A DNA stretch of 64,000 nucleotides from Euzebya pacifica (GTDB lineage: Bacteria > Actinomycetota > Nitriliruptoria > Euzebyales > Euzebyaceae): NCBI RefSeq assembly GCF_003344865.1, contig NZ_CP031165.1:3539910-3603909 (forward strand). Reading direction: 5' to 3'. The notes below the pieces were generated by a model. That model made no database searches, had not been told where the DNA came from, and saw only the letters and a program-made list of their open reading frames with translations. Of the stretch, positions 8,138 to 28,765 are shown piece after piece; the first letter of the stretch is position 1; each line of letters opens with the position of its first letter. Position numbers and translations under genes: made by a program.

Positions 8138-10189
8138 TCAGTCGACGAAGGTGGCGAGGGAGTCCTCCACGTCGCCACCGAGCGCGGCCTCGCCGCCCAT
8201 CATCCAGATCTCGTTCCAGCTGCCGGTGTCCAGGTGGCTGGACACCGCGGTGGCCAGCGTGTCGCCCGGGGTCAGCAGCAGCGGCATCCCGAGCGAGGCG
8301 CTGAACGCCCCGCCGCCCAGCCCGTCGGGGAAGCGTTCGCCGCTCGCCACACCGACCCGGGTGGCGTCGGGGAAGAACTCACGGGCCAGCAGCACGGAGG
8401 TGTCGTAGGCATCGGTCCCGTCGATGGACCGGGCCTCGGGAATGGCTGTCGAGGCGGCCGGTCCGACGGCGGTGACGGTGGCCCCGGGATGTTCGCTGAT
8501 GAACACCCGTGCCGCGTCGGTCAGCGCGGAGGCGTTGGTGGTGATGACCACGCCGTCGTTGGCTCCCGCCGCCGCGCCGGCCATCAGCGCCCAGGGGAAG
8601 TCGAACGCGTCGGCCACCAGCACGTGGTCGACCTCACCGATCTGCGTCGCGGCCTCCCGTGCGATGGCCAGGGAGGTCTCGATCCGCGAGTCGCCCGACA
8701 GGCGCACGGTGCCGAAGCCCAGCTGCTGCACGTCGACCACCACGTCGTCGGACAGGGCGGCGACACCACCCAGCACGTAGACCCGGGCACCGTCGGGCAG
8801 CAGCCGGCGCAGCTCGGTCGCCACGGGGCCGGTCAGGCCGTCGCGTGGCGTCAGCAGGAGGGGGCCATCGACCGCAGCGGCCAGCGCCGCGCCCGCCAGC
8901 GCGTCGGCTTCGACGTCCTGCCGGGCCAGCACCGCAGCCGCGGCCCCGTCGGGCCAGGCCTGCTGGCCAACGGCGACGCTCGTCTCGATGCGCGCGGGGC
9001 CGGCAAGCCGCACGAGCCCTGCATCCTGGGGCCCGGCGGCCGGATCGGCGACCGCGATCTCGGCCGGTTCGGTGCCGACGGCAGCGGGGTCGACGGCGGC
9101 CGCCCGGTTCATCGACACGAACGCCGCATCACCCGCACGATCGACAACCGCGGTCGAGGCGTCACCGACGGCACCCATACCGATGCCGAACGCCAGGCTG
9201 TCCACCTCCTCGACGCAGCTGGCGTCGAGGTCGCCGGCATGCAGCACCTGCCCGACGAGCATGGCCCGGCCGGTGCAGACGACCGTGCCGTCGGGGTCGG
9301 TGATCTGCACCGCGAAGCCGACGCCGTCCCAGATGGCCCGCAGGATCCGATCGGCCGACGCGTCGCCGTCGAGGTCCAGCAGCGCCGCGGGCCCGGCACC
9401 CGGACCGAGCGCCTCGAAGTCCATGGCGGGGAGGCGGACGGCCATCGCCAGGCCGTCGCCGTACTCCATGCAGGCCTCGGTGAGGTCCGCGGCCGGACGG
9501 TCGATCGGCGTCTCCTGGCCGTTGCCGGCACGGGCCACCACGTCACCGGTCGGGTCGGGCACGCACACGGGCACGCTGTCGGCGTCGGGGAGGGCGGAGG
9601 TGTCCAGCACGACCTGGCCGCGCTCAGGGGCGTAGTCGGCGGTGGCGTTGTCCTCCCCCGGGTTGGACAGCGAGCCGTAGTGGCCGATGACCGCGGGCGT
9701 CCCGATCACGTCGGCGTCGATGGTGACGGTGATGCGGCGGGGCCCCGACCGGCTGACGGTGGCCAGGCCGACCGCCTCGAGGTCACCCTGCTCGCAGCTC
9801 GGTGACACGAACACCCCCGCCAGCACGTCATCGGTGCCGTCGTCGGCACGGTTGACGCCGTACAGCAGGTAGTCGCCCTCGCTGCAGCCGTTGGCGGTGT
9901 TGCCGTCGGTGTCGATCCGCACGTACAGCTCGGAGAACCGGCTGTCGGCCCACTCGTCGCGGGTGACGAAGGTGAAGGCGAAGGCATCGCTGCTGCACAG
10001 GTGGGCCGCACCGTAGGCGACGATGTCCAGCTCACCGCCCTCGGCCTCGTCGGCCACCGAGGTGGAGGCACAGGTGCCGTCGGGTTGTGCTCGGACCGGC
10101 GGGGCCGCGAGGGCCACCAGCAGCAACGACAGCAGCAACGACACCAGCACGAGGCCGATGATGGACACGGTCGTGACCGATTCGCGCAC
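8138..10189 (-). CDS. Secreted cell-wall-binding repeat 2 (CWB2) protein
   Basis: 683 residues. A signal peptide (VSIIGLVLVSLLLSLLLVALA, cleavage near PVRAQ) is followed by about 330 residues of unknown beta-rich type with several cysteines and a VRIDTDGNTANGC segment. The C-terminal 290 residues are CWB2 repeats with hallmark blocks RLAGPARIETSVAV, VYVLGGVAALSDDVV, RLSGDSRIETSLAIA and MMGGEAALGGDV. These domains attach proteins non-covalently to the envelope polysaccharide. The GTG at 10189 has AAGGAG 7 nt upstream; the frame extends further but without a ribosome site. The N-terminal function is not recognised. Confidence 0.82.
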   Translation of the reverse strand: MRESVTTVSIIGLVLVSLLLSLLLVALAAPPVRAQPDGTCASTSVADEAEGGELDIVAYGAAHLCSSDAFAFTFVTRDEWADSRFSELYVRIDTDGNTANGCSEGDYLLYGVNRADDGTDDVLAGVFVSPSCEQGDLEAVGLATVSRSGPRRITVTIDADVIGTPAVIGHYGSLSNPGEDNATADYAPERGQVVLDTSALPDADSVPVCVPDPTGDVVARAGNGQETPIDRPAADLTEACMEYGDGLAMAVRLPAMDFEALGPGAGPAALLDLDGDASADRILRAIWDGVGFAVQITDPDGTVVCTGRAMLVGQVLHAGDLDASCVEEVDSLAFGIGMGAVGDASTAVVDRAGDAAFVSMNRAAAVDPAAVGTEPAEIAVADPAAGPQDAGLVRLAGPARIETSVAVGQQAWPDGAAAAVLARQDVEADALAGAALAAAVDGPLLLTPRDGLTGPVATELRRLLPDGARVYVLGGVAALSDDVVVDVQQLGFGTVRLSGDSRIETSLAIAREAATQIGEVDHVLVADAFDFPWALMAGAAAGANDGVVITTNASALTDAARVFISEHPGATVTAVGPAASTAIPEARSIDGTDAYDTSVLLAREFFPDATRVGVASGERFPDGLGGGAFSASLGMPLLLTPGDTLATAVSSHLDTGSWNEIWMMGGEAALGGDVEDSLATFVD

Positions 10190-10255
10190 CTGACTGCTCC
10201 TTGACTCTCCGTGCCCGCCCCCTCGGCGAGCGGGGCAACCATAGGACACCGACGG

Positions 10256-14256: not shown

Positions 14257-15150
14257 TCAGTAGCCCAGCTTGTCGAGCTTCTTGGGGTCCCGCTGCCATT
14301 CCTTGGAGATCTTGACGCGGAGGTCCAGGTAGACCTTGGTGCCGAGCAGCGCCTCGAGCTCGGGGCGGGCGTCGGTGCCGATCTGGGCGAGGACCGCGCC
14401 CTGGCGGCCGATGACCATGCCCTTCTGGGAGTCGCGCTCGACGTAGATGGAGGCGAAGATCGCCGTCACGTTCTCCGACCGGCCGGGTCCCATCTCCTCG
14501 ACGGTGACCGCGATGGAGTGGGGCACCTCCTCGCGCATGACGACCATGGCCTTCTCGCGCACGATCTCCGAGATGCGCTGTGCTTCCTCGGAGTCGGTGA
14601 CCATCTCCACCGGGTACAGCGCCGGTCCCTCGGGCATGCGTGCGGCGATCAGGTCGGTCAGCACCTCGACCTGCTCACCTCGGCGGGCGCTGACGGGCAC
14701 GATCTCGTCGAAGTCGGCCAGATCCGCCAGGGCGGCGATGGCCGGCAGCTGGGCGTCCTTGCCGATCCGGTCGACCTTGTTGAGCACACCGATGATCGGC
14801 ACGCCCAGCCCGCTCACGAGCTCGGCCATGAAGGCATCCCCCGTTCCGATGCCCTTGGCGCCGTCGACGACCAGCACGGCGACGTCCACACCGGACAGCG
14901 ACGCCTGGGCGATGTCGTTGAGCCGGCTGCCCAGCAGGGTCTTCGGCTTGTGCACCCCCGGCGTGTCCACGAAGACGATCTGGACGTCCTCGCGGGTCAG
15001 GATGCCGCGGATGGCATGGCGGGTGGTCTGGGGAATCCGCGTCGTGATGGCGACCTTCTCACCGATGATGGCGTTGAGGAGGGTCGACTTGCCGACGTTG
15101 GGACGACCGACGATGGCGCAGACGCCTGATGCGGTGACGGAGGTGCTCAC
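14257..15150 (-). CDS. era: GTPase Era (16S rRNA/30S assembly)
   Basis: 297 residues. G1 GRPNVGKST, G2 TTRHAIRG, G3 DTPGVHKP, G4 NKVD and G5 SARRG are all present. The C-terminal KH domain carries GMVIGRQGAVLAQIGTDAR. Era binds the 3' end of 16S rRNA and couples ribosome maturation to growth. The GTG start at 15150 lacks a Shine-Dalgarno but has TACCGT 8 nt upstream, so it may be leaderless. It is an essential housekeeping gene, of normal length. Confidence 0.96.
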   Translation of the reverse strand: MSTSVTASGVCAIVGRPNVGKSTLLNAIIGEKVAITTRIPQTTRHAIRGILTREDVQIVFVDTPGVHKPKTLLGSRLNDIAQASLSGVDVAVLVVDGAKGIGTGDAFMAELVSGLGVPIIGVLNKVDRIGKDAQLPAIAALADLADFDEIVPVSARRGEQVEVLTDLIAARMPEGPALYPVEMVTDSEEAQRISEIVREKAMVVMREEVPHSIAVTVEEMGPGRSENVTAIFASIYVERDSQKGMVIGRQGAVLAQIGTDARPELEALLGTKVYLDLRVKISKEWQRDPKKLDKLGY

Positions 15151-15213: not shown

Positions 15214-15900
15214 TCAGGCAGCCACGGCCACCTCGTCGGGCACCGCCCCCGTCCAGGTGGCGATGGCCTGCTCGCGGGACTCCACGCCGAGCTTGGCGTA
15301 GGCCCGGTTGATGTGGTTCTTGACGGTCTTCTCCGAGATCACGAGCAGCCCGGCGATGGCGGTGTTGGACATGCCGCGGGCGATCAACGACAGGATCTCG
15401 GCCTCGCGGTCGGTCATGCTGTCGGGCCGGGCGGGTTCGACGGTGTCGGGCACGCCGGTCCTGATGAGCTCCAGCAGGGTCGGTGCGACGCTCGGCGACA
15501 CCCACGAGCCGCCGGCCACGACCTCGTGGACGGCCCGGACCAGCTCGTCGGCATCGACGCGTCCGCGGGCGAGGCACCCCACCGCCCCGGCGTGCACGGC
15601 CCTGACCACCACCCCCGGGGCGTGCGGGTCGACCAGTGCCACGACCCTCGTCGTCCGTGACAGCGCCCGCAGTCGCGACAGCTGCTCGTCCCGGGCATCC
15701 ACGTCGAGGATCACGAGGTCGGCGCCACCGGGGGACGTGGTGGCCCGCTGGTCGACGAGGGCGATGCCGTCCATGCGGCCGACGCACTCCTCGAGCTGGC
15801 GCCGGATGGCCACAGGCGTGTCCGTCACCGCGACCCGGATGGCAGCCGACGGAGTGCGGTCGTGCGAGGGACGTGTCCGACGCGGGGCGATGGCGGTCAC
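15214..15900 (-). CDS. Response regulator, NarL/LuxR type
   Basis: 228 residues. An N-terminal receiver-like domain (residues about 12-130) keeps a candidate phospho-acceptor in DLVILDVDARD but has a weak acidic pocket, so phosphorylation is uncertain. The C-terminal LuxR helix-turn-helix is clear: LTDREAEILSLIARGMSNTAIA-type block (here MTDREAEILS), then SEKTVKNHINRAYAKLGVESREQAI. No sensor kinase lies nearby. It overlaps the upstream MinD-type ATPase gene by 4 bp, so the two are co-translated and probably functionally linked. Confidence 0.85.
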   Translation of the reverse strand: MTAIAPRRTRPSHDRTPSAAIRVAVTDTPVAIRRQLEECVGRMDGIALVDQRATTSPGGADLVILDVDARDEQLSRLRALSRTTRVVALVDPHAPGVVVRAVHAGAVGCLARGRVDADELVRAVHEVVAGGSWVSPSVAPTLLELIRTGVPDTVEPARPDSMTDREAEILSLIARGMSNTAIAGLLVISEKTVKNHINRAYAKLGVESREQAIATWTGAVPDEVAVAA

Positions 15901-16952
15901 GACGGGTCCTTCATCTGGTCACGGGGCGAGGGCAACGCGAAGCCGTCGGCGACGGATGCGGCGACGTCGAGCCACGCGGCCTGGGTGTCGGGCCGCAGCA
16001 GGTCGGGGTCGGTGACGGCACCGGCTTCGAGGTGTCGATCGTGCGGCACGTGGTGCAGCGCCCTGGTCCGGCCGCGGAAGTGGGACTCGATCGCGTCGAG
16101 GTCCACCCGGCTGGCCTCGGCGACATGGTTCACGACCACGACGGCGTCACGCACCAGCGCGGCGCGGCCGTGCCCCTCCAGCCAGTCGAGGGTCAGCCCG
16201 GCCGCACGTGCGGTGTCCAGCGCCGTTCCAGACACCAGCACGATCTGGTCGACGGCGTCGAGGATGCCGCTGTGGGCGTCGTCGATGATGCCGGTCCCGG
16301 TGTCGCACAGGACCACGGAGAAGTGGCGGTGCATCTCGTCGAGCACCTGCTGGTAGTCCTCGCCCGACAGCGAACGGGAGGAGTGGGGGTTCTCGGGCGA
16401 GGCCAGCACCTCCAGCCGGCTGGGCGCCTGCGAGGTCAGCTGCCGCGCATCGGGGTACCCGCCGACGGTGCCGATGGCCGCCAGCGCGTCGACCACCGTG
16501 GCAGCGGTCTGGCGCGGGACCCGGTGGCCGAGCGTGCCGGCGTCGGGGTTGCCGTCGACGGCCAGCACGCGGTCCCGACGCACCGCGGCAAGGGTGTGAC
16601 CGATCATCAGGGTCGTCGTGGTCTTGCCGACCCCGCCCTTGCGGGAGAGCACGGCGACGCGTCGACCACCGGGAGCAGGCTGGCGGCAACGGTCGACGGC
16701 GAACTGCCAGCGGTCGGGACCCGGTTCGGGGTCCGGACCGCGGAACCGCTGCAGCAGGCCACGGACCCCGCCAGGGGTCGGCGCGCTGCGGGGCACGACC
16801 ACGGCGTCCTCGTCCAGCGGCGAGGTCGGGCGGTCGATCGGGGCGGACGTGGGGCCCTGCGGCGCTGGCAGGCCCGTCGTGGCGTCGGCGTAGGCGTCCG
16901 CCCACAGCAGCCCCGACGACTCGTCGTCATCAGGGGGTGTGGGGTCGGCCAT
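15897..16952 (-). CDS. MinD/ParA-superfamily ATPase, EspI-like
   Basis: 351 residues. An acidic/proline-rich N-terminal tail of about 100 residues precedes a SIMIBI ATPase domain with deviant Walker A SRKGGVGKTTTT, switch I region VDGNPDAGTLGHRV and switch II VVLCDTGTGIID. The 'GHTLA..R.DRVLAVD.NPD.G' pattern and the late block LRPDTQAAWLDVAASVADGF resemble EspI-type ATPases of actinobacterial type VII loci more than chromosomal ParA. It is paralogous to the divergent ATPase at 17142. The ATG at 16952 is chosen with a weak AGAAG upstream; a GTG at 17000 is possible. The cellular role is unknown. Confidence 0.8.
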   Translation of the reverse strand: MADPTPPDDDESSGLLWADAYADATTGLPAPQGPTSAPIDRPTSPLDEDAVVVPRSAPTPGGVRGLLQRFRGPDPEPGPDRWQFAVDRCRQPAPGGRRVAVLSRKGGVGKTTTTLMIGHTLAAVRRDRVLAVDGNPDAGTLGHRVPRQTAATVVDALAAIGTVGGYPDARQLTSQAPSRLEVLASPENPHSSRSLSGEDYQQVLDEMHRHFSVVLCDTGTGIIDDAHSGILDAVDQIVLVSGTALDTARAAGLTLDWLEGHGRAALVRDAVVVVNHVAEASRVDLDAIESHFRGRTRALHHVPHDRHLEAGAVTDPDLLRPDTQAAWLDVAASVADGFALPSPRDQMKDPS

Positions 16953-17141
16953 GTCGGCTTCTACCGATCGGCCGGTCCGAACACCTCCCTCCTCCCGCAC
17001 CTTTCTCGTCAGCCGGCCCCCGGTGACGGAGCGGAGTTGTCCACATGACGCAGGGTGTCGGACTAGTCCCCCACGATGGGAGCGGCTACAACAGGACCCA
17101 GCAGTCAGCAGACAACGACGGTGACCTCGGGGGAGGACCTG
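16953..17141. other. Divergent intergenic region between paralogous ATPase genes
   Basis: 189 bp that must hold both promoters. The perfect 10-bp palindrome GGACTAGTCC lies at 17060-17069 and could be an operator or a core promoter element. No confident -35/-10 pair can be assigned in either direction. Confidence 0.35.
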
Positions 17142-18329
17142 ATGAGCACGGGAGAGCAGGTGACCGAGTCAGGACCCCTGGCGGATCCTGTCACGGTGGC
17201 GACCACGACGATCGACCTCGTCGTCGACCCCACGCCTGCACCGACGCACATCACCACGACGGACTCGCCGACCGCGTCCGATGATCGACCCGAGGCGACC
17301 CCGGCCGCTGCGGATGACCGTCCCGGCCCTCGAGGCCAGGCAGCGGACCCGTTCTCGCTGACGGAAGAAGAGCTCGACGGGGACCGCACGTTCGCCTTCG
17401 ACGGCGATGCGTGGGTCGACGAGCCCACCCCCGTCCCGGCGACGGGCTGGCGCCGACGGGTGTGGGCCGTGACGGGTGGCCGCATCAACCCGGGCCCCAC
17501 CCCGGAGGAACAGCGGCTGCGCGAGCGGATGGAGGCGATCCGACGTCCGTTCGGCGGGGCACGCACCCTGGCCGTCGTGTCGACCAAGGGCGGCGTCGGC
17601 AAGACCACCACCACGTTGAACCTGGGCCACACGCTGGCCAGCATCCGTGGCGACCGGGTCGTGGCGCTGGACGCCAACCCCGACGCGGGCTCCCTGGGAC
17701 ATCGGGTCAGACGTGAACACGGCGCGACGTCGGTCGACCTGTTGGCCGAGGCCGATCACATCTTCGGCTACGGCGACGTTCGTCACTTCACCTCGCAGGC
17801 CGAGAGCCTGCTCGAGGTCGTTGCCAGCGACGACGACCCCCTGTCGGCACGACGGATGGGCCGTCCGGAGTACGAGCGGCTGCTGAACGTGCTGCGCGTC
17901 CACTACAACCTCGTCCTGGCCGACTGCGGGACGGGGATCCTGGACGCGGCCACCCGAGGGGTGGTCCAGCGCAGCGACCAGCTGGTGGTGGTCACCGGTC
18001 CCAGCGTCGACTCCGCGCGAGCGGTCTCCTACCTGCTGGCCTGGCTGCGCGAACACGGGCAGGCCGAGCTGGTCGAGCGGGCCGTGGTGGTCGTCAACGG
18101 CGTACGGCAGGACGGCTCACCGGTCGACATCGACTCGTTGGTCGACCATTTCGCCGCCCAGGTGCGTGCGGTGCGGACGGTCCCCTGGGACGAGGAGCTC
18201 GCGAACGGGGCGGTGGTCGAGCTGGACTGGCTGGCGCCCGCAACACGACAGGCGTACGTGCAGCTGGCAGCTGTGGTTGTTGATGGACTGGGCGACGAGC
18301 TCGCCGGGGAAGGCGGTACTGGACGATGA
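17142..18329 (+). CDS. MinD/ParA-superfamily ATPase, EspI-like (paralogue)
   Basis: 395 residues. A Thr/Asp-rich disordered tail (residues 1 to about 140) is followed by the ATPase domain with STKGGVGKTTTTLNLGHTLA, LDANPDAGSLGHRVRRE, the switch II LVLADCGTGILD and the C-terminal APATRQAYVQLAAVVVDGL. It is clearly paralogous to the divergent ATPase: both share FTSQA/LTSQA, CDTGTGI/DCGTGI and VVVVN blocks. ATG 17142 has GGGAGG 5 nt upstream. It overlaps the LysM gene by 4 bp, which overlaps the TcpC-like gene by 4 bp, so the three form one translational unit. EspI homologues are linked to type VII secretion; no secretion ATPase is seen here, so the role is open. Confidence 0.82.
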   Translation: MSTGEQVTESGPLADPVTVATTTIDLVVDPTPAPTHITTTDSPTASDDRPEATPAAADDRPGPRGQAADPFSLTEEELDGDRTFAFDGDAWVDEPTPVPATGWRRRVWAVTGGRINPGPTPEEQRLRERMEAIRRPFGGARTLAVVSTKGGVGKTTTTLNLGHTLASIRGDRVVALDANPDAGSLGHRVRREHGATSVDLLAEADHIFGYGDVRHFTSQAESLLEVVASDDDPLSARRMGRPEYERLLNVLRVHYNLVLADCGTGILDAATRGVVQRSDQLVVVTGPSVDSARAVSYLLAWLREHGQAELVERAVVVVNGVRQDGSPVDIDSLVDHFAAQVRAVRTVPWDEELANGAVVELDWLAPATRQAYVQLAAVVVDGLGDELAGEGGTGR

Positions 18330-20323
18330 CGGATCGAGGACGACTGCACGCCGATGCGGCGCTGGAGTCCCTTCTGGCCGACGAGCGGGTGGAGCGGCGG
18401 GTCAAGCGACGCCGCCAGGCGGTGGAGGAGCTGACCGCCGCCGAGGGGTCGACGACCCGCTCCGTGGTCTCGGCGGCCGGACGTGGCGCCCGGGGTGGGG
18501 CCGTCGCTGCGGGTGCCGCCGGGATGCTGCTCGCGCCGAACATGGCCGGGGTTGCCGCGGCGCAGGAGGCGGCCCAGGACGCCCCCCCGGTCCCCGTCAT
18601 GGCCGAACCCGATGCACCGGCAGCGGCCCCTGCCACGGGGGCGGACTCGCCAGCCCCGGGTCCCATCAGCCGTCAGTCCGGCGGAACGACGCCGTCCACA
18701 CCGGCCGTCGACGCACCGGCCCCGCAGACTCCAGTCGCCGACGCCCCCACGGTCGACGAACCAGTCGTGGACGCCCCGGCGGTCGAGGCACCGTCCGTCG
18801 ACGCCCCCACCCCAGCGGCGCCCGCTGCCGACGACTCGATGGCCGAGGCCCCTGTGGCGGACACCCCGGCTGACGGCGACGCGGTGATCGACCCCAGCGA
18901 CGGGGATGCCCCGCCCGCCGACGACGGGGTGCTGCCCGACACCGACCTGCCCGACACGGACCTGCCGGATGTCGACCTGCCGGATGTCGGCCTGCCGGAT
19001 GTCGACCTGCCGGATCTCGGCCTGCCGGGCACGGACGCACCCGGGCCGGTGGAAGAGCCGGTGGACGCCGTTCCCGGTGAACCGGGCGACGAGGTCGACC
19101 CGGCGGCGCCGCCGGTCGGCGAGGCCCCCGTCGACGAGGTCCCCGTCGGCGAGGTCCCCGTCGGCGAGGTCCCCGTCGAGGGCACGCCGGAGGTGCCGTC
19201 GCCGGACGTCCCCACGCCGGATGTGGAAGCCCCCGACGCACCCGAACCCGACATCGGGGGTCCCGCCACCCCGGCGCCCGACGTCGAGGTGCCGGTCGAG
19301 GACGAACCCGTCGGGATCGACGACCAGCTGGCCGACCTGATCCACGACGCGATCGAGGACGCCATCGACCTGCCCGACGGCACACCCCTCGACGACGGCG
19401 AGGTCGTGGTGGTCGTCGACACCCCTGCTGACGGCGAACCCGTCGTCGACGTGCCGGTCGAGGAGCTCGTGGAGCCGGTCGTCGACCAAGTCGTCGACCA
19501 GGTCGCTGAGCCCGTTGTCGACGCCGTTGTGGAGCCGGTGACGGCGGTCGTGGCCCCCGCTCCTGCCGCACCGGCTGCCCCCGCGCCGGTCACGCCCGCC
19601 CCACCCGTGCCGTCCGCACCTGCAGTCCAGTCCCCCGCGCCGCAGGCCCCGTCGACGCCCACCCCTCCGCGGCCCATCCCGACGGCCCTCGACGTCGCCG
19701 GCGCCACGGCCCCCTCGGCCACCGACGCCGGTCGCATCGACCCCGCACCGACGGCGACGCCCGACGCCTCCCTGGTGACGCAGGCCGCCCCCTCAGCCGA
19801 GCAGCCGACAGCCGTCTCGCCGCTTGCACCGCCCGCGCCGGCTCCTCTGCCGGCAACGGTCGTCGACCCCGTCATGTCACCGAACCTCGCCACGACCGCG
19901 CGTCCGAACCCGGGCGCGGCGCCGACGGCCGACGCCACTCCTGCGAAGACCGTCGACGACCGCATCGCCGAGGCACAGCAGCGTCCCGTCGACTCCCGAC
20001 GCATCCGGGACTGGTCCCAAGCGGTCCTGCGGGCCTGGGACGCCGTTCGCGCCGGATCGACCACCGAGCAGGACGTCGTGGCGGTGTCGGACACGGTGAC
20101 GGCATCCCCCACCCTCGGCAACGCCTACGAGGTGCAGCGCGGCGACTCGTTGTGGACGATCGCCCGAGCGCTGTGGCCCGACGTCGACCTGACGACCACC
20201 GAGCTCGAGGCCACCTGGCAGCTGCTGTACACCTGGAACGCCGAACGGCTCGGCGACGACCCGGACTCGTTGCCTCGCGGCCTGGTCCTGCAGATCCCGG
20301 TCGATCTCGCCCCGATGGCGTGA
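18326..20323 (+). CDS. Low-complexity Asp/Pro/Val-rich LysM-domain protein
   Basis: 665 residues. A charged N-terminus (EERV-RRVKRRRQAVEEL type) is followed by an Ala/Gly-rich hydrophobic stretch at about residues 52-78 that may be an atypical membrane or export segment. Residues 90 to about 580 are low-complexity, dominated by Asp, Pro, Val and Ala, with two short tandem arrays: a five-residue LPDxD type (about 207-235) and a five-residue VPVGE type (about 270-285). The C-terminal 60 residues are LysM-like (YEVQRGDSLWTIARALWP, then GLVLQIP), predicting peptidoglycan binding. It could be a wall-spanning scaffold for its operon partners; this is inference. The repeat tract may vary in length between strains. 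Confidence 0.75.
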   Translation: MTDRGRLHADAALESLLADERVERRVKRRRQAVEELTAAEGSTTRSVVSAAGRGARGGAVAAGAAGMLLAPNMAGVAAAQEAAQDAPPVPVMAEPDAPAAAPATGADSPAPGPISRQSGGTTPSTPAVDAPAPQTPVADAPTVDEPVVDAPAVEAPSVDAPTPAAPAADDSMAEAPVADTPADGDAVIDPSDGDAPPADDGVLPDTDLPDTDLPDVDLPDVGLPDVDLPDLGLPGTDAPGPVEEPVDAVPGEPGDEVDPAAPPVGEAPVDEVPVGEVPVGEVPVEGTPEVPSPDVPTPDVEAPDAPEPDIGGPATPAPDVEVPVEDEPVGIDDQLADLIHDAIEDAIDLPDGTPLDDGEVVVVVDTPADGEPVVDVPVEELVEPVVDQVVDQVAEPVVDAVVEPVTAVVAPAPAAPAAPAPVTPAPPVPSAPAVQSPAPQAPSTPTPPRPIPTALDVAGATAPSATDAGRIDPAPTATPDASLVTQAAPSAEQPTAVSPLAPPAPAPLPATVVDPVMSPNLATTARPNPGAAPTADATPAKTVDDRIAEAQQRPVDSRRIRDWSQAVLRAWDAVRAGSTTEQDVVAVSDTVTASPTLGNAYEVQRGDSLWTIARALWPDVDLTTTELEATWQLLYTWNAERLGDDPDSLPRGLVLQIPVDLAPMA

Positions 20324-21489
20324 ACGCCGGGCGACGCCAGGTCGACTTGGGCGACACCGGGAGCGGCTTCGACCGCCGCGACTTCGCCCCACCGGGGACG
20401 AAGTTCCCCCTCGAACCCTCCGACCGAAATCCCCGTCCGGCCCGTGGGCGAACGGGTGGCCCTCGGGACCGACCGTCGCCCTCCGGAGGTCCGCCTCCGT
20501 GGTTGCGCTGGGTGCTGCTCGGTGTCGGCGTCCTGGTGCTCGGGCTCCTGGCCATGGTGGTCATCGGTGGGCAGGCTGACGACACCCCCCCAGCGGAGGG
20601 CGTTGCCGCCACCGCCGCTGCCGATGGGCCGTCGTCGAGGGACGACGCCACCGACAGCACCGCCGATGGTGCACCCGAGGTCGCTGACCCGGATCCGGTC
20701 GAGGGCGATCAGCTGCCCGACGCGAATACCGCTGCGGACACCGGCGGAACCGACGCCGAGCCGTCGGCCGGCTCCGGCTCAGGCGAGGTCGGCACGATCG
20801 ACCCGGAGCTCCAGGGTGCCGCCGGTTTCGCGGTCCAGTTCGCCAACAGCTACCTGAACTACGACGAGGCGCAGCCCGACGTCCGCGCGCGTGAGCTCGC
20901 CGCCTACCTCGCGCCCGGGCTGGACGCCCAGCTGGGGTGGTCCGGTACCGGACGACAGCTGGCCGCCCTGGTCATCGCCCTGCGCGCCGAACCAACCGAG
21001 GACGGGGCCGTCGTCGTCACCGTGGCCGCGCAGGTGACCGGGACCGACGCCCCCCGCTGGGTGCACCTGGCCGTGCCGTTGCGACAGGACGACCGTGCCC
21101 GTTGGGCCGTCACGGCGCCGCCGGCGTTCGTGCCCCGCCCCTCCCCCGGGAACCCGACGGTCCCCGCGACACCGGCATCCGACGACGAGCTCGGCGCGCA
21201 GCTGACCGACGCCGTCACCCAGGCCTTCGTGGCGTTCGGCACCTCTGCCACCGTGGACCTGCCCGGCATCACCGCCGAGGATGCCCGTATCCGCGGTCTC
21301 GACGGGCAGTTCGCCTTCGTCCGCCTCGCCGAGCTCGTCGTGCACGACGGCGACGACACCGCCCGCACCGCCACCGCACGGGTGGTCTGGCGCAACGACA
21401 TCGCCGGCGGCGAGATCGAGCAGACCTACCGGCTGGACCTGACGGCCGCGGGCAACGCGTGGCTGATCGGCGCCATCACGATCGGCTGA
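20320..21489 (+). CDS. TcpC/conjugal-transfer-like bitopic membrane protein
   Basis: 389 residues, GTG start overlapping the LysM stop by 4 bp (GTGA). An Arg/Pro-rich cytoplasmic head (1-60), one membrane helix at about 62-82 (WLRWVLLGVGVLVLGLLAMVV), an acidic linker to about 160, then two tandem NTF2-like regions (about 165-275 and 285-389). The pattern of AVQFANSYLNYDE, RARELAAYLAPGLDAQ and WAVTAPPAFVPRPSPG resembles TcpC-type proteins that form part of the channel of Gram-positive conjugation systems. No VirB4, coupling protein or relaxase lies in the window, so a conjugative role is doubtful; an envelope complex with the ATPase and LysM protein is more economical. Confidence 0.68.
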   Translation: MNAGRRQVDLGDTGSGFDRRDFAPPGTKFPLEPSDRNPRPARGRTGGPRDRPSPSGGPPPWLRWVLLGVGVLVLGLLAMVVIGGQADDTPPAEGVAATAAADGPSSRDDATDSTADGAPEVADPDPVEGDQLPDANTAADTGGTDAEPSAGSGSGEVGTIDPELQGAAGFAVQFANSYLNYDEAQPDVRARELAAYLAPGLDAQLGWSGTGRQLAALVIALRAEPTEDGAVVVTVAAQVTGTDAPRWVHLAVPLRQDDRARWAVTAPPAFVPRPSPGNPTVPATPASDDELGAQLTDAVTQAFVAFGTSATVDLPGITAEDARIRGLDGQFAFVRLAELVVHDGDDTARTATARVVWRNDIAGGEIEQTYRLDLTAAGNAWLIGAITIG

Positions 21490-21641
21490 CCCCGAACCAG
21501 AACGACTGGTCATCCCGGCATGTGTCAGGATCACCACGTGGTTGCAGTGTCGAACCGATGGCATCAACCGAGCCACGAGTGCCGGACACCCCGCCGGGTG
21601 AGACGAGCGCAGCGCAGTCAATCCAGGGGAGGGAGCACCGA

Positions 21642-22214
21642 GTGCACGTCGTGACCTACACACGGGGATCGAGCGAGGACAGCCGGGCCTACCGGATCGA
21701 TCGGATCCTCGATGCCCAGCCCGACCACGAGCAGTACACCTCCGTCACCCGGTTCGGCGACGGGCAGGCCGGCAGCGCCGACCCCCGCCACCCCCAGCGC
21801 AAGGCGATGCTCGCGGCATGCGAGGGTGGACAGTTCGACCTGCTGGTCGTCAACACCCTGTGGGACCTCCACGCGCCCGGGACCGACGCCGACGTCAACA
21901 CGCTGGTCGCGCTCCTGCATCGCGGCGACCTGGACGAGATCCGGTTCGCCGACGGCACGAGCTGGGTCGCGACCGACCCAGCGACGGTCGCCGCGGAACG
22001 GTTCCTCGGCGACGCCGACGAGGTGGTCGCCGCCATGGAGGTCCTCAGACAGGCCGCCCCCGACCGCTTCCTCGATGCCGCCGCCGAGCTGTACCGGGCC
22101 GTGGTCGGGGACGCCGCCACCCGGCGGGCCCGAGGCGCCGACGCGGACACCGCCGCCGACCTGGTCGTCGAGCACGACAGCGATTCCGCGTCGACGGACT
22201 CCCTGCGGGGCTGA
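21642..22214 (+). CDS. Degenerate serine-recombinase (resolvase) fold protein without DNA-binding domain
   Basis: 190 residues. The order of elements follows the resolvase N-terminal catalytic domain: a beta-strand ending TYTRGSSED where the nucleophile serine would be, FGDGQAGSADPRHPQRKAMLAAC matching the D-G-xSG-xxxRP-x-l block, and FDLLVVNTLWDLHAPGTD in place of the usual kLDRLsR. The catalytic arginines of that last motif are absent, and no helix-turn-helix or recombinase domain follows. It is therefore unlikely to recombine DNA. The GTG at 21642 is preferred because GGGGAGGGAG sits 7 nt upstream; an in-frame ATG at 21558 has none. It lies 152 nt after the TcpC-like gene. Function unknown. 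Confidence 0.65.
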   Translation: MHVVTYTRGSSEDSRAYRIDRILDAQPDHEQYTSVTRFGDGQAGSADPRHPQRKAMLAACEGGQFDLLVVNTLWDLHAPGTDADVNTLVALLHRGDLDEIRFADGTSWVATDPATVAAERFLGDADEVVAAMEVLRQAAPDRFLDAAAELYRAVVGDAATRRARGADADTAADLVVEHDSDSASTDSLRG

Positions 22215-22256: not shown

Positions 22257-24239
22257 ATGCCCCAGCAGTCCCCTCCCCCCTCACCGACCGCACCGCTCGT
22301 GGCGGGCGTCGACGTCGGTGGCACCTTCACCGACGCCGTCGTGCTGACCGCCGACGGACCACGCCTGGCAAAGGTCCCGACCACCCCCAGCGACCAGGGC
22401 GAGGGGCTGGTCGCCGCCGTGGAGGCCGCCGGGCAACGACCGACCGTCGACCTGCAGGCGCTGGCCCACGGCACGACGACCGCGACCAACGCCGTGCTCG
22501 AGCGGACCCTCGACCGGGCCGTCCTGCTCGTGACCGAGGGGTTCGCCGACGTCCTCACCATCGCCCGACAGAACCGCCCTTCCCTGTACGACCTGTCGGC
22601 GGTCCGGCCCGCTCCCACGATCCCCCGGGACATGGTGGTGCCCGTGCCGGAGCGGATCACCGTCGACGGTGAGGTGCTGACACCCCTCACCGAGGCGGCC
22701 ATCGAGGCGGTCGTGGCCCGGACCGTCGCGCTGCAACCCGACGCGGTGGCGATCTGCCTGCTGTTCGGCTGGGCCGATCCGTCGCACGAACACCGCCTCG
22801 CCACCGCCGTGGCTGCCGCGCTCCCCGACGTCCACATCACCGTGTCCGCCGACCTCGTCGGGTCGATCAGGGAGTACGAACGGGCAAGCACCTGTGCCCT
22901 CAACGCCGCTGTCGGTCCCACCATGGGCCGCTACCTGCAACGGTTGTCCGACCGGCTGCCCGACACCGACGTCACCGTCATGACCTCCGGCGGCGGGACC
23001 GCTGACCTGGACCGCATGGTCGCCGAACCCGTCCACACCCTGCTGTCGGGCCCCGCCGGTGGCGTCGTCGCCGCCGCCGCGGCCGCCCGATCCGCGGGGT
23101 TCGACGATGCGATCGCCTTCGACATGGGTGGGACGTCCACCGATGTGTGCCTGATCCGCGGCGGGGAACCGGTCGTCAGCCTCGCCGGCACGATCGACGG
23201 GTTGCCCATCGGCACCTCGACGATCGGGATCCACACGGTCGGTGCCGGCGGCGGCTCCATCGCCGCGCTCGACGCCGGCGGGGCCCTGCGGGTCGGCCCC
23301 CGCAGCGCCGGGTCCGACCCGGGTCCGGCCTGCTACGGACGCGGCGGCACCCAGCCGACCGTCACCGACGCCCATGCCGTCCTCGGCCACCTCGACAGCC
23401 TCGCTGGCGGCACCATGACCGCCGACGTCGCGGCAGCCGAGCGGGCCATCGCACGGATCGAGGGGGTCACCGCCACCGGCATCCTCGACGTCGTCCGCGC
23501 CGCCATGGCCCGGGCCCTGCGGCGGGTGTCGACCGAAGCGGGCGTCGATCCCGACAGCCTTGCCCTCGTGGCCTACGGCGGCGCCGGTCCGCTGCACGCC
23601 TCGGCCCTGGCCCGGATGCTCGGCTGCCGCGCAACGGTGCTGGCGCCCGCACCCGGTGTGCTGTCCGCGGTCGGCCTGCTGACCGCACCGCAACGGCGCG
23701 AGTGGTCCCGGACGGTGATGGTCCCGCCGGAGCGGCTGCGCGACACCCTCGAGTTGCTGCCGCTGGACGAATCCGTGACCGGTTCCATCCCCGATGCCGC
23801 AGCCACCGTCCGTACGGTCGCGGACCTGCGCTACGTCGGACAGGCCCACGAGCTGCGCATCGACGTCGACCCGGACGCCGGCGAGGACCTCGGCACCCTG
23901 GCGGCGTTCCACCGTCGCCACGAGCAGGTCTACGGCTATGCGCTGCACGACGCCGACGTCGTCGTGGTCACCGTCCGGCGGATCAGCCAGCGGCCCGCCC
24001 TGCACACCGAAGCGGTGACCGGCTGGGACCTGGGCCCGAGCACGCCGACGACGACCCGGACCGCGGACCTCGGCGACGGCCCCGAGGCGGTCTCCGTCGT
24101 CGCCCGTGGCAGCCTGCGTCCGGGCGACACGGTGAGCGGGTCGGCGATCCTCGTCCAGCCCGACTCGACCGGGCTGCTGCTCCACGGCGACGTCGGCACG
24201 GTCGACGACCACCTCAACCTGGTGATCCGCCATGGCTGA
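22257..24239 (+). CDS. hyuA: Hydantoinase/oxoprolinase subunit A
   Basis: 660-residue ASKHA-fold subunit of an ATP-dependent N-methylhydantoinase/5-oxoprolinase-type enzyme, acting with HyuB. VAGVDVGGTFTDAVV is the N-terminal phosphate-binding loop, AHGTTTATNAVLER the conserved hydantoinase A block, then SGPAGGVVAAAAAA and FDMGGTSTDVCLI. The TIGIHTVGAGGGSIA motif is also family-typical. The substrate within the family (5-oxoproline, N-methylhydantoin, other cyclic amides; acetone carboxylase is also related) cannot be fixed from sequence. It overlaps hyuB by 8 bp. Confidence 0.92.
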   Translation: MPQQSPPPSPTAPLVAGVDVGGTFTDAVVLTADGPRLAKVPTTPSDQGEGLVAAVEAAGQRPTVDLQALAHGTTTATNAVLERTLDRAVLLVTEGFADVLTIARQNRPSLYDLSAVRPAPTIPRDMVVPVPERITVDGEVLTPLTEAAIEAVVARTVALQPDAVAICLLFGWADPSHEHRLATAVAAALPDVHITVSADLVGSIREYERASTCALNAAVGPTMGRYLQRLSDRLPDTDVTVMTSGGGTADLDRMVAEPVHTLLSGPAGGVVAAAAAARSAGFDDAIAFDMGGTSTDVCLIRGGEPVVSLAGTIDGLPIGTSTIGIHTVGAGGGSIAALDAGGALRVGPRSAGSDPGPACYGRGGTQPTVTDAHAVLGHLDSLAGGTMTADVAAAERAIARIEGVTATGILDVVRAAMARALRRVSTEAGVDPDSLALVAYGGAGPLHASALARMLGCRATVLAPAPGVLSAVGLLTAPQRREWSRTVMVPPERLRDTLELLPLDESVTGSIPDAAATVRTVADLRYVGQAHELRIDVDPDAGEDLGTLAAFHRRHEQVYGYALHDADVVVVTVRRISQRPALHTEAVTGWDLGPSTPTTTRTADLGDGPEAVSVVARGSLRPGDTVSGSAILVQPDSTGLLLHGDVGTVDDHLNLVIRHG

Positions 24240-25854
24240 CCCGCGCCCACCCGCCGACCCGGCACGCCTGCAGGTCACCCGCCACGCCCTCGACGGTGTC
24301 GCCGAGCAGATGGGGGTGGCGTTGGAGCGGTCCGCCTACTCCCCCAACATCACCGAGCGCCTCGACCTGTCCGCGGCCATCTTCTCGCCGAGCGGTGAGA
24401 TGGTGGCCCAGGCCGAGCACATCCCGGTCCACCTCGGCTCGATGCCGGCATCGGTCGACTCGATCCTCGGCGCCTTCGACCTGTCGCCGGGGATGACCGC
24501 CGTCGTCAACGACCCCTACCGGGGTGGGTCGCACCTGCCCGACATCACCCTCGTCGGCGCGGTCGGAGACCGCGAGGACGGACGGTCGGGGCAGCTCATC
24601 GGGTATGTCGCGAACCGTGCACACCACGCCGACATCGCCGGCGCCGCGCCCGGGTCGATGCCGGCCGACGCCACCGACATCGCGATGGAGGGCCTGCGCA
24701 TCCCACCGCTCCTGCTGGTCGACGACCACGGCGAACGCACCGACGTGATCGAGATGCTGGCGGCCAACTCGCGGACCCCGACGGAACGTCACGGCGACCT
24801 GCGGGCCCAGTTCGCCGCCAACCACGCCGGAGCCGCGAGGTTGTGCGAGATGGCCGCCGAACGAGGTCGGGACGGCCTCCTGGCCGACATGGATGCGCTG
24901 GTGGACTACGCCGAACGGCGGATCCGCGCCGCCCTGGCCGAGATGCCCGACGGCGAGTGGACGTTCAGCGACTGGTTGGAGGTCGCCGCCGACGGCTCCA
25001 TGGATGCCGCTGCCCAGGCCGTTGGGCTCGAGCTGCACACCACCGTGGCCATCCGTGGCGACCAGCTCGTGGTCGACCTGACACGTTGCCCCCCGCAGGT
25101 CCCTGCCAACGTCAACGCCGTGCGGGCCGTGACGGAGTCCGCCGCCCTGTTCGTCCTGCGCCTCGTCACCGACCCGGATGCGCCGGCCAACGCCGGGACG
25201 GCTCGGGCCATGACCGTGCAGACCACCCCGGGGACGATCGTGGACGCCGTCTTCCCGGCTCCGGTCGCAACCGGCAACGTCGAGACCAGCCAACGCCTGG
25301 TCGACCTGCTGCTCGGCGCGCTCGCACAGGCCGTGCCCGACCGCGTGCCGGCTGCGTCGCAGGGCACCATGAACAACATCCTCATCGGCAGCAGCGGGCA
25401 GGGCACCCCGTTCGCCTACTACGAGACGATCGGCGGCGGTGAGGGCGGCACCCCGGGACGGCCCGGCATGGACGGCGTCCACACGGGCATGACCAACACG
25501 CGCAACACCCCGGTCGAGGCGCTGGAGGTGGCCTACCCGCTGCGGGTCGTTCGCTCCGAGCTCCGCAGCGGAACCGGCGGCGAGGGGCTGCACCCCGGCG
25601 GCGACGGGATCGTGCGCGAGATCGAGGTGCTGACCGACGCACGGGTGACCGTGCAGACGGAACGCCGGGCCCGGGGGCCATGGGGCCTGGGCGGCGGTCG
25701 GGCCGGACAACCGGGGCGCAACACCCTCATCCGACCCGACGGGACGACGCAGGCCCTCCCCGCGAAGGTGACCCTGACGGTGCAGGCTGGTGACCGCATC
25801 CGCCTGGAGACGCCTGGCGGAGGAGGCTGGGGAACGCAGGCCGCACACCAATGA
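24232..25854 (+). CDS. hyuB: Hydantoinase/oxoprolinase subunit B
   Basis: 540 residues, the partner of HyuA. The opening region HALDGVAEQMGVALERSAYSPNI, the metal-site block PVHLGSMPASVDSI and VVNDPYRGGSHLPDITLV, and the later YYETIGGGEGG and HTGMTNTRNTPVEALE are hallmark hydantoinase B motifs. Length is normal for the bacterial split subunit. Its last codons overlap the LytR-CpsA-Psr gene by 4 bp, an unexpected coupling of a catabolic enzyme with a cell-wall ligase. Confidence 0.92.
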   Translation: MADPRPPADPARLQVTRHALDGVAEQMGVALERSAYSPNITERLDLSAAIFSPSGEMVAQAEHIPVHLGSMPASVDSILGAFDLSPGMTAVVNDPYRGGSHLPDITLVGAVGDREDGRSGQLIGYVANRAHHADIAGAAPGSMPADATDIAMEGLRIPPLLLVDDHGERTDVIEMLAANSRTPTERHGDLRAQFAANHAGAARLCEMAAERGRDGLLADMDALVDYAERRIRAALAEMPDGEWTFSDWLEVAADGSMDAAAQAVGLELHTTVAIRGDQLVVDLTRCPPQVPANVNAVRAVTESAALFVLRLVTDPDAPANAGTARAMTVQTTPGTIVDAVFPAPVATGNVETSQRLVDLLLGALAQAVPDRVPAASQGTMNNILIGSSGQGTPFAYYETIGGGEGGTPGRPGMDGVHTGMTNTRNTPVEALEVAYPLRVVRSELRSGTGGEGLHPGGDGIVREIEVLTDARVTVQTERRARGPWGLGGGRAGQPGRNTLIRPDGTTQALPAKVTLTVQAGDRIRLETPGGGGWGTQAAHQ

Positions 25855-27269
25855 GCCAGGACGACTACGACTACGACCGCACCTACGGCGAGCGCTGGGG
25901 TGGCGACGGCCATCGCCCGGACGACTTCGGTCCCGCCATGACCGGCCGCCACCGGCGGGTGTCGTTCACCAAGGCGCTGGGTGGGGTGTTCAACATCGCG
26001 TTCTCGGCCCTGATGATCGTGCTCCTCGCCCTCGGGGGGCTGGCGGTGTATGCCTCCAGCCAGATCCAGCGCGAACCGGTCGAGGGCCTCGTGAGCGGCG
26101 GGCCCACCCTCAACGTGCTGGTGGTCGGATCCGACAGCCGTGACGGCTTCACCCCCGAGCAGCTGCTGGAGCTGGGCACGGAGGCGGTCGACGGCCGTCG
26201 GACCGACACGATCTTCCTGCTCAGCATCGACGGCGGACGGGCCGCGATGCTCTCGTTCCCCCGCGACCTGTTCGTCGAGCAGTGCGACGGCGTGCAGGGC
26301 CGGGTCAACGCGGCGTTCGCCCGCGGTGGTCCCAGCTGCCTGGTCCAGACCGTCTCCAACGCCTCGGGCATCCCGATCGACCACTACGTCGAGGTCAACC
26401 TGTTCGGGTTCGTGCAGATCGTCGACGCGGTCGGTGGTGTGCCGGTGTTCCTCGACGAGCCCCTGCAGGACCAGTTCGCGGCGGTCGACCTGCCCGCTGG
26501 CTGCCACGTGCTCGACGGCACCCAGGCCATCGGCTTCGTCCGCGCCCGCCACGTCGACTCCGACCTCGGTCGCATCGCTCGCCAGCAGCGGTTCCTGCGC
26601 TCGCTGGCCCAGCAGGTCGTGTCCCCCTCGACCCTGGTCAACGTCCCCCGCCTGTTCCGCGTCGCGGGTTCGGCTGGCCGCACGCTCATCGCCGACGAGG
26701 GGCTCGGGCTGATCGAGCTGGCGCAGCTGGCGCGAGCGGCCCGTGGGCTGGCGGGCTCCGGCCTAGCCACCTACACGGTGCCGGCCAACGCCGCGAACAT
26801 CGGCGGGGCTGCCGTCCTCGTGCCCGACCCGGACGCCGCCGGCGCGCTGTACGCCTCGTTCGCCGACGGGTCGGTGCTGTCGCTGAACCCCGGTGAGGAC
26901 GTGCAGGCGCTGCAGCCGGGCGACGTGCCTGTCCGGGTCCTCAACGCCACCGGTACCGAGGGCCTTGCCGCCACGGTGCGCGACTTCCTGACCGCACGCG
27001 GGTTCGACATCGTCGGCATCGGCAACGCCGACCCCACCGACGGCACGGTCGTGCGCTACGCCGGCCCCAACGTCGCCGCGGCCCAGCTGGTCGCCGAGCA
27101 GATCCCCGGCGCGACGCTGCAGCAGGACGACTCGCTGACCGAGGTCGTCCTCATCGTCGGCTCAGCCATCGACGTGTCCGCCCCGCCTCCTCCCCCGATG
27201 ACGGAGGACCCGGGCGCGGCCGAGGAGGTCCCCGTCGGCGCCGCCGCCGTCCCCGACGAATGCAGCTAG
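25851..27269 (+). CDS. LytR-CpsA-Psr (LCP) family glycopolymer ligase with LytR_C domain
   Basis: 472 residues. LCP enzymes transfer polyprenyl-linked glycopolymers to peptidoglycan on the outer face of the membrane. A cytosolic head of about 45 residues is followed by a membrane helix (IAFSALMIVLLALGGLAVYAS). The catalytic domain (about 75-310) contains VVGSDSRD, RTDTIFLLSID, SFPRDLFVE with the essential arginine, VNLFGFVQIVDAVGGV and FVRARHVDSDLGRIARQQRF. A LytR_C domain at about 355-445 starts PVRVLNATGTEGLA, followed by a proline-rich tail. It overlaps hyuB by 4 bp. Confidence 0.93.
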   Translation: MSQDDYDYDRTYGERWGGDGHRPDDFGPAMTGRHRRVSFTKALGGVFNIAFSALMIVLLALGGLAVYASSQIQREPVEGLVSGGPTLNVLVVGSDSRDGFTPEQLLELGTEAVDGRRTDTIFLLSIDGGRAAMLSFPRDLFVEQCDGVQGRVNAAFARGGPSCLVQTVSNASGIPIDHYVEVNLFGFVQIVDAVGGVPVFLDEPLQDQFAAVDLPAGCHVLDGTQAIGFVRARHVDSDLGRIARQQRFLRSLAQQVVSPSTLVNVPRLFRVAGSAGRTLIADEGLGLIELAQLARAARGLAGSGLATYTVPANAANIGGAAVLVPDPDAAGALYASFADGSVLSLNPGEDVQALQPGDVPVRVLNATGTEGLAATVRDFLTARGFDIVGIGNADPTDGTVVRYAGPNVAAAQLVAEQIPGATLQQDDSLTEVVLIVGSAIDVSAPPPPPMTEDPGAAEEVPVGAAAVPDECS

Positions 27270-27499: not shown

Positions 27500-28765
27500 C
27501 TAGAGGTAGCCCATGGGGTCGACGGGGGTGCCACCGGCCCAGACCTCGAAGTGCAGGTGGGTACCGGTGCACGAGCCGGTGCAGCCCATGCCGCCGAGGT
27601 AGGTCCCCCCGCCGACGGACTGGCCCGCGCTGACGGCGATGGAGGACATGTGGGCGTAGAGGGTGGTCAGGCCGTTGCCGTGGGCGATGATCACGACGTT
27701 GCCGAAGCCGCTGCCGGACCAGTTCTCGGCCTTGGTGACGGTGCCACCGCGGGCGGCCACGATCGGCGCCCCCGAGCCGGCAGCGATGTCGATGCCGTTG
27801 TGGTTGCGGCCCCAGCGGGGTCCGAACCCGGACGTGACGGTGCCACCGGCGGGCCACTGGAGGCCGCCACCGCCGGACGGTGCGGCCACGGGGGCCGGCG
27901 CGGGCGGCGGTGCGGTGGCCTCCTCGATCTCGGCCTCGTCGTCCTCGCCCTCGGCCTCGTCGTCGGCGATGACCTCGGCGGCCAGCTGCTCGGCGGCTTC
28001 CTTGGCGGCCGCCTCGGCCACCGCGCGGGCCTCGGCCTGGGCCTGCTCGCGGAGCAGCTCGATGGCCTCCTCCTCCAGGTGCTCCTCGCGGGACTGCAGG
28101 CGGGCGACCAGGTCCTGGCTGGCGGCGGCGATCAGCTCGCGGTCGTTGCGGATCTCCTCCACCTCGACCAGCAGCGCCTGCTGCTCGACCAGCACGCGGT
28201 CCAGCGCGACGGTCTCCTCGTCGAGGGCACGCTGACGGCCCTCGACGCGTGACTGGGCGTTCTCGAGGCCCTCGACCAGCGCGCGGTCCTGGCGACCGAT
28301 GGCGGTGATGTAGGCGCTCTGCTCGACGGCGTCCGACACCGTGGAGGCGTCCAGGACGGTGATCAGGGGGTCGGGGCGTGCCTGGCGGTACAACCGGTTG
28401 ATGCGCAGCGCCATCCGCTGCTGCTGCTCGACGAGCTCGCCCTGCGCGACGGCCAGCTCGCGCTCGGCCTCGGCGACGGCGTCCTCCTGGCGTCCGACGG
28501 CCTGCTGGGCGGTCTCCACGGCGGTGAAGACGGCTTCCAGCTGGGCGTCGGCATCCTCCAGCGCGATCATGTCGTCGTCGGCCTCCCCCCGCGCGGCGTT
28601 CAGCTCGCCGCGAACGCGTTCGAGCTCCTCGCGGGTCTGGGAGATCCGGGATTCCTCCGAACCGGTCGCGCTGGCCGGGCCGCTCGTGGCGATGGCCATG
28701 GCGAGGACGAGCAGCAGCAGGACGGCGCGGCTGAGCGGCGAATGGATGGAGGAGGAGAGGATCAT
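27500..28765 (-). CDS. Secreted M23 family murein endopeptidase with coiled coil
   Basis: 421 residues. A signal peptide (about 1-34, ending GPASATG) is followed by a long coiled coil (about 35-285) rich in Glu, Ala, Gln and Arg, as in EnvC/PcsB-type hydrolases. An acidic and proline linker leads to the LytM/M23 domain (about 310-421). The zinc-binding histidine and aspartate are in NHNGIDIAAG and the H-x-H pair in GTHLHFEVW, so it should be catalytically active. It would cut peptide cross-links in peptidoglycan, probably during division or wall turnover. It is divergent from the VanW gene. Confidence 0.92.
   Translation of the reverse strand: MILSSSIHSPLSRAVLLLLVLAMAIATSGPASATGSEESRISQTREELERVRGELNAARGEADDDMIALEDADAQLEAVFTAVETAQQAVGRQEDAVAEAERELAVAQGELVEQQQRMALRINRLYRQARPDPLITVLDASTVSDAVEQSAYITAIGRQDRALVEGLENAQSRVEGRQRALDEETVALDRVLVEQQALLVEVEEIRNDRELIAAASQDLVARLQSREEHLEEEAIELLREQAQAEARAVAEAAAKEAAEQLAAEVIADDEAEGEDDEAEIEEATAPPPAPAPVAAPSGGGGLQWPAGGTVTSGFGPRWGRNHNGIDIAAGSGAPIVAARGGTVTKAENWSGSGFGNVVIIAHGNGLTTLYAHMSSIAVSAGQSVGGGTYLGGMGCTGSCTGTHLHFEVWAGGTPVDPMGYL

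Follow-up and report, generated by a model that had tools for sequence, protein, structure and literature searches.

In a window of 64,000 nucleotides on the 5.80-Mb chromosome (C1) of Euzebya pacifica, the genes for two divergent ATPases, a LysM protein and a TcpC protein are tentatively read, with a probability of about 0.4, as a free-standing accessory set for wall-crossing machines. The set would consist of two units. The first, LysM-TcpC-LCP, is found throughout the family; the second is the ATPase pair A/B joined with the LysM protein, which recurs beside a type VII secretion system (T7SS) in the same genome (G000, which also has a second contig of 0.57 Mb).

Layout and conservation of the locus

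The fixed boundary of the locus is era (14257-15150, minus strand). Next to it lies the gene of a LuxR/NarL-type regulator (RR; 15214-15900, minus strand), which overlaps by 4 bp the gene of ATPase A (15897-17000, minus strand), a MinD/EspI-like protein with a KGGVGKT Walker A motif. A divergent intergenic gap (17001-17075) separates the latter from the gene of ATPase B (17076-18329, plus strand), likewise MinD/EspI-like, which opens a plus-strand run with the LysM gene (18326-20323) and the gene of a TcpC/VirB8-type bitopic protein (20320-21489), with 4-bp overlaps at both joins. The sequence-only reading had given positions, strands and overlaps for these five genes, and all were found correct when the sequence was re-read. 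It had also called the ATPases paralogous and divergent, which holds as well: they share 46% identity and their starts are 75 bp apart. Gene starts are uncertain, gene calls in the relatives come from a simple custom caller, and several of the relatives are draft genomes.

Further downstream are the gene of a degenerate serine-recombinase-like protein (21558-22214, plus strand), which is not part of the core, and a HyuA/HyuB pair (22257-25854), which separates the TcpC gene from that of an LCP wall-polymer ligase (LytR-CpsA-Psr plus LytR_C; 25851-27269, plus strand; PF03816, E 6e-39; LytR_C, E 2e-18). Two conserved neighbours follow, an M23 peptidase (27500-28765, minus strand; PF01551, E 2e-31) and a VanW/G5/peptidoglycan-binding protein (28994-30988, plus strand; PF04294, E 1e-40). 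NCBIfam profiles gave no family above the cut-off for the module proteins. Within the part of the window's genes that was scanned, no secretion ATPase, relaxase or coupling protein was found beside the module, as had been noted earlier, and no complete conjugation or type VII locus lies nearby. Elsewhere in the window, CWB2 cell-wall-binding repeats occur in a 703-aa protein (three repeats; 8138-10249, minus strand) and in a 1923-aa alpha-L-rhamnosidase (50616-56387).

The locus was compared among four genomes of the genus (G000 to G003) and a same-family genome of 2.1 Mb (G004). The order LysM-TcpC-LCP is present in all five, and, far from being scattered in relatives, the genes keep their order and overlaps throughout the genus. 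TcpC directly adjoins LCP in G003 and G004, and the other three genomes have HyuA/HyuB between the two. The ATPases are limited to the genus; G004 has neither ATPases nor Tad genes, yet it keeps LysM-TcpC-LCP. The M23 peptidase gene occupies the same position in G001 to G003, as does a homologue of the VanW/G5 gene in G001 and G003.

The resolvase-like gene is limited at this locus to G000 and G002 and is absent from the loci of G001 and G003 (two of the three sister species), which places it outside the conserved module. Its Pfam Resolvase match reaches 16.9 bits against a cut-off of 23.3 (E 0.007), and a DRLGR-type motif was absent when the sequence was read by eye. The best Foldseek matches, obtained with a low-confidence model, were serine recombinases (E 0.0025-0.009). 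Of the resolvase-fold protein proposed earlier, the fold thus keeps weak support, but the profile match is under the cut-off and the gene is accessory.

Between G000 and G002, dN/dS is 0.10 for ATPase A, 0.17 for ATPase B, 0.27 for the LysM protein and 0.29 for TcpC, with 0.19 for the regulator, 0.23 for the resolvase-like protein and 0.03 for both era and LCP. The values of 0.10-0.29 indicate purifying selection on A, B, LysM and TcpC, looser than on housekeeping genes; the genes are maintained and not decaying. Decay of the module as a mere relic was therefore rejected.

The divergent ATPases, their second copy and the regulator

Both ATPases match Pfam CbiA/AAA_31 (CbiA E 8e-10 for A and E 3e-13 for B) and have the KGGVGKT motif in common. 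In ATPase A, for which an alternative shorter start at 16952 is possible, the Walker motif and the family columns are invariant across the alignment. ATPase B, for which shorter starts are also possible, has a long low-complexity N-terminus and a GWRR...TGG..NPGP motif. The strict GWRR form was counted in 4 of 85 retrieved ATPase loci, hence the motif is not universal; several others have a looser GWR..GG form.

Relatives with about 45-54% identity, the range also obtained for ATPase B against ATPases in ESX and type IV secretion system (T4SS) loci, occur next to ESX genes (Streptomyces, a Mycolicibacterium plasmid) and next to T4SS genes (class members, an Iamia plasmid); others stand alone. 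Those beside T4SS and ESX loci in other genomes are single ATPases. Plasmid ESX clusters include EspI (PMC4791881), and the EspI/SCO5717-like ATPases of ESX loci (about 45-48% identity) share with the window proteins the MinD-type domain, KGGVGKT and the long low-complexity N-terminus, and in several cases a GWR..TGG..NPG-like motif. In the tree, however, the ESX-locus ATPases form a clade of their own (98/94) in which the window ATPases are not nested; A and B fall into separate clades, and the sister group of B is formed by T4SS-linked ATPases (93/91). Since the ESX sequences stand apart and B groups in this way, 'EspI-like' is right and 'EspI' is wrong: the resemblance reported from the sequence alone holds at the level of the EspI/SCO5717-like superfamily, including the N-terminal low-complexity extension, but not as nesting with ESX EspI. 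No ESX core genes are present at the locus; a T7SS equipped with an ATPase pair of its own lies at a distance of 2.2 Mb. At three retrieved loci (L080, L084 and L094), EspI-family ATPases adjoin a BTAD-like gene and paired short ORFs with an LLPxRETL motif, which possibly encode small modified peptides.

A search of the own genome recovered a second divergent pair (C1:1380427-1382538). Its layout is that of the window, with divergent A and B and a 4-bp overlap of ATPase B with a LysM gene. Window ATPase A forms a clade with ATPase A of the T7SS locus (92/90) and window ATPase B with ATPase B of that locus (97/97); this pairing of like with like shows that the A-B-LysM cassette was copied as a unit. 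Beside the copy are genes for an FHA-FtsK protein of 1503 aa, for two members of the WXG100 family and for chimeras containing WXG, and the genes flanking the locus look flagellar. The T7SS-like locus as a whole (C1 1.38-1.396 Mb) holds FHA-FtsK EssC, WXG100, WXG-peptidase-like chimera and kinase genes. EssC is present in G000 and G002; genome searches found none in G001 or G003, though both keep the window module. For this reason, the idea that the module mainly acts in trans on the T7SS was rejected.

A different machine adjoins ATPase A in two sister species. Between ATPase A and era, G003 (contiguously) and G001 (across two contigs) have a Tad operon with genes for CpaB, a CpaE-like protein, TadE, CpaF, TadB, TadC, a histidine kinase and a regulator. 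Besides this kinase and regulator of its own, the operon contains genes for a Flp-like pilin and a vWA protein. In G000 and G002 the regulator alone remains in this interval; CpaF, TadB, TadC and Flp are absent there in G000, whose closest CpaF elsewhere stands at 55%. The GerE DNA-binding domain of the window RR is intact (E 9e-18), whereas the receiver (Response_reg) is matched at E 0.07, has deletions around the phospho-acceptor and has lost one residue of the acidic pair, with a D to S change in G002. Because the receiver is degenerate, a search with the Tad regulator did not rank the window RR first. Its placement was settled by a tree of regulators, in which it groups with the Tad-operon regulators of G001 and G003, apart from eight other regulators of G000 (99/99). 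The window RR is a relic of the regulator of the sisters' Tad operon. Loss of the operon in G000 and G002 is the simpler reading; its gain in G001 and G003 is a possible alternative.

CpaE-type MinD ATPases have been modelled around the Tad motor (PMC13170226). Tad CpaE/TadZ and the window ATPases are alike in the MinD/ParA fold, and in the sisters the Tad operon adjoins ATPase A. They differ in that no receiver domain was found in the window ATPases and that the Tad operon of the sisters has its own CpaE-like protein.

The LysM and TcpC proteins and other wall-crossing machines

The LysM protein is composed of a charged N-terminal tail, a hydrophobic segment, a low-complexity Pro/Asp-rich spacer and a probable C-terminal LysM domain. 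The latter scores 18.7 bits against a Pfam cut-off of 20.9 (E 0.0017) and is nonetheless conserved in G001 to G004 and in the T7SS paralogue. Between G000 and G002 the two ends of the protein are 93% and 90% identical and the spacer 65%. The charged tail was seen in the ATPase-linked LysM proteins examined (G000, G001, G003 and two T7SS copies), whereas the LysM protein of the ATPase-less G004 has a plain signal-like start and no such tail, a comparison of small numbers. It is possible that this tail belongs to a signal that is cleaved off.

The TcpC resemblance noted from the sequence alone is real homology. The protein matches Pfam TpcC (PF12642, VirB8-like) with 52.3 bits against a curated cut-off of 27 (E 8.8e-14), a profile of the five family members matches PDB 3ub1 (E 6e-11), and the four best Foldseek matches of a single-sequence, low-confidence model (pLDDT 51) are all 3ub1 (E 5e-5 to 8e-5). 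Window TcpC is thereby alike in sequence, profile and, weakly, fold to the TcpC/VirB8 proteins of Gram-positive conjugation (3ub1, from a conjugative plasmid; OrfG of ICESt3), and shares with them one transmembrane segment (a single hydrophobic segment near residue 65 by hydropathy) followed by an NTF2-type outer part. VirB8 proteins of Gram-positive bacteria are wall components that multimerise (PMC11753425). The window protein differs in having no adjoining VirB4, relaxase or coupling protein and in being linked to LysM and LCP. Plasmid entries named 'conjugal transfer protein' are 31-35% identical; at the one plasmid locus viewed, two small genes and the gene of an ATP-binding protein come after TcpC.

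With the profile of window TcpC, TcpC of the order members G015 and G016 is matched at 99.8%. In G016, TcpC adjoins TcpE and VirB4; in G015, TcpC and VirB4 both lie at contig ends. In two genomes of the phylum sample (G202 and G277), TcpC relatives adjoin VirB4-like genes. VirB4 stands beside LysM-TcpC in none of the five family genomes. Weak TcpC matches in G030, G040 and G058 covered the transmembrane region alone, had unrelated genes around them and were dropped.

Apart from the window module, all five family genomes have a T4SS-like locus that includes a LysM-VirB8 pair of its own. VirB4 orthologues occur in the same five and in two other class genomes (44-49%). In G000 this locus lies beside dnaK-grpE-dnaJ-hspR (C1 about 5.735-5.743 Mb; L181 9037-17312) and is syntenic in the genus. 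It contains LysM, VirB8-like, small TcpD-like, VirB4, VirB6-like and M23/SLT genes; the copies of G002 and G004 also showed TcpE, and in the stretches viewed there was no coupling protein. The likeness to the window module is a LysM-VirB8 gene pair with a 4-bp overlap, the VirB8 being remotely similar to window TcpC (12.8% in hhalign); the difference is the full set with VirB4, VirB6-like protein and hydrolase. G000 also has a Tad-type locus at 0.94 Mb, further CpaF-like genes elsewhere and, at 2.43 Mb, an SCO6880-type T4SS that includes VirD4. Its second contig carries a VirB4-like gene, near which a ParA-like gene was noticed (L185 7426-8385).

Possible functions of the locus

If the locus is an accessory set, TcpC would be the building block of a tube or collar of VirB8 type in the wall, anchored in peptidoglycan. 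The LysM protein would tether this tube to the peptidoglycan, and LCP would be the neighbouring wall-polymer ligase. On the cytoplasmic side, the charged tail of the LysM protein may serve as a docking site for the ATPases, and ATP binding by A and B may position or gate the wall complex in the way of CpaE/TadZ for Tad pili. Any role in secretion would be exerted in trans, the proposed partner being perhaps the dnaK-side T4SS-like apparatus or another wall-crossing complex.

This reading was preferred on account of the TcpC homology, the cassette paralogue beside FHA-FtsK and WXG100 genes, the adjacency of ATPase relatives to ESX and T4SS genes, and the Tad operon at the same spot in G001 and G003. 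The joint presence of LysM-TcpC-LCP and a T4SS-like locus with VirB4 in the same five genomes, the charged LysM tail that tracks the ATPases, the dN/dS values, the multimeric state of VirB8 in the wall (PMC11753425) and the modelled position of CpaE round the Tad motor (PMC13170226) point the same way. Against it counts that no machine adjoins the genes; of the wall-spanning, ATPase-positioned complex suggested earlier, a wall-linked and ATPase-linked module without an adjoining machine is what stands. The T4SS-like locus owns a VirB8 and a LysM protein, so that a second set need not act there, and the co-occurrence with VirB4 is weak evidence because shared ancestry in one family confounds it. 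As the module occurs without a T7SS (G001, G003) and LysM-TcpC without ATPases and Tad (G004), no single machine fits all cases. A LysM tail that belonged to a cleaved signal would also speak against the accessory set.

Nearly as likely is a cell-wall module unrelated to secretion, in which TcpC and the LysM protein, jointly with LCP, M23 and VanW, would organise the attachment of wall polymers, and the ATPases would place the site of growth or attachment. LysM-TcpC-LCP is indeed the most conserved unit, the M23 and VanW/G5 genes keep their place beside it across the genus, and TcpC adjoins VirB4 in relatives outside the family (G016, G202, G277) but not within it. On the other hand, TcpC and the ATPases come from families that are secretion-linked in most other places examined, and a LysM-VirB8 pair is also found inside the T4SS-like locus. 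That the ATPases and the regulator once served a pilus operon now lost, with the remaining genes as relics, is unlikely: the Tad operon in G001 and G003 and the degenerate receiver of the regulator agree with it, but A, B, LysM and TcpC show no decay by dN/dS, LysM-TcpC is independent of Tad in G004, and the Tad operon carries its own CpaE-like ATPase. Still less is to be said for action in trans with the T7SS of G000, to which the paralogous cassette inside the T7SS locus would point; that system owns an A-B-LysM copy, and the module persists in the two species lacking EssC. Adjacency by chance, with no common function, is the least probable explanation. The contents do vary by layer, the ATPases being genus-only and the resolvase-like gene confined to two species, but order and overlaps are kept in the genus, LysM-TcpC-LCP is family-wide and the cassette was duplicated as a unit.

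A bolder and rather doubtful form of the accessory-set reading is that the A/B-LysM cassette is a portable coupler of ATPase to wall, which actinobacteria would fit to T7SS, Tad pilus and T4SS-like machines and which here would drive a free-standing VirB8-type wall tube with wall-polymer ligation and no secretion motor. If the accessory-set reading is true, the accessory ATPases of secretion systems and their wall subunits would move jointly between unrelated machines and persist without one. The role of EspI-type ATPases would then be testable in a small system, and the locus would be a simple example of the anchoring of a wall-crossing complex in the Gram-positive wall.
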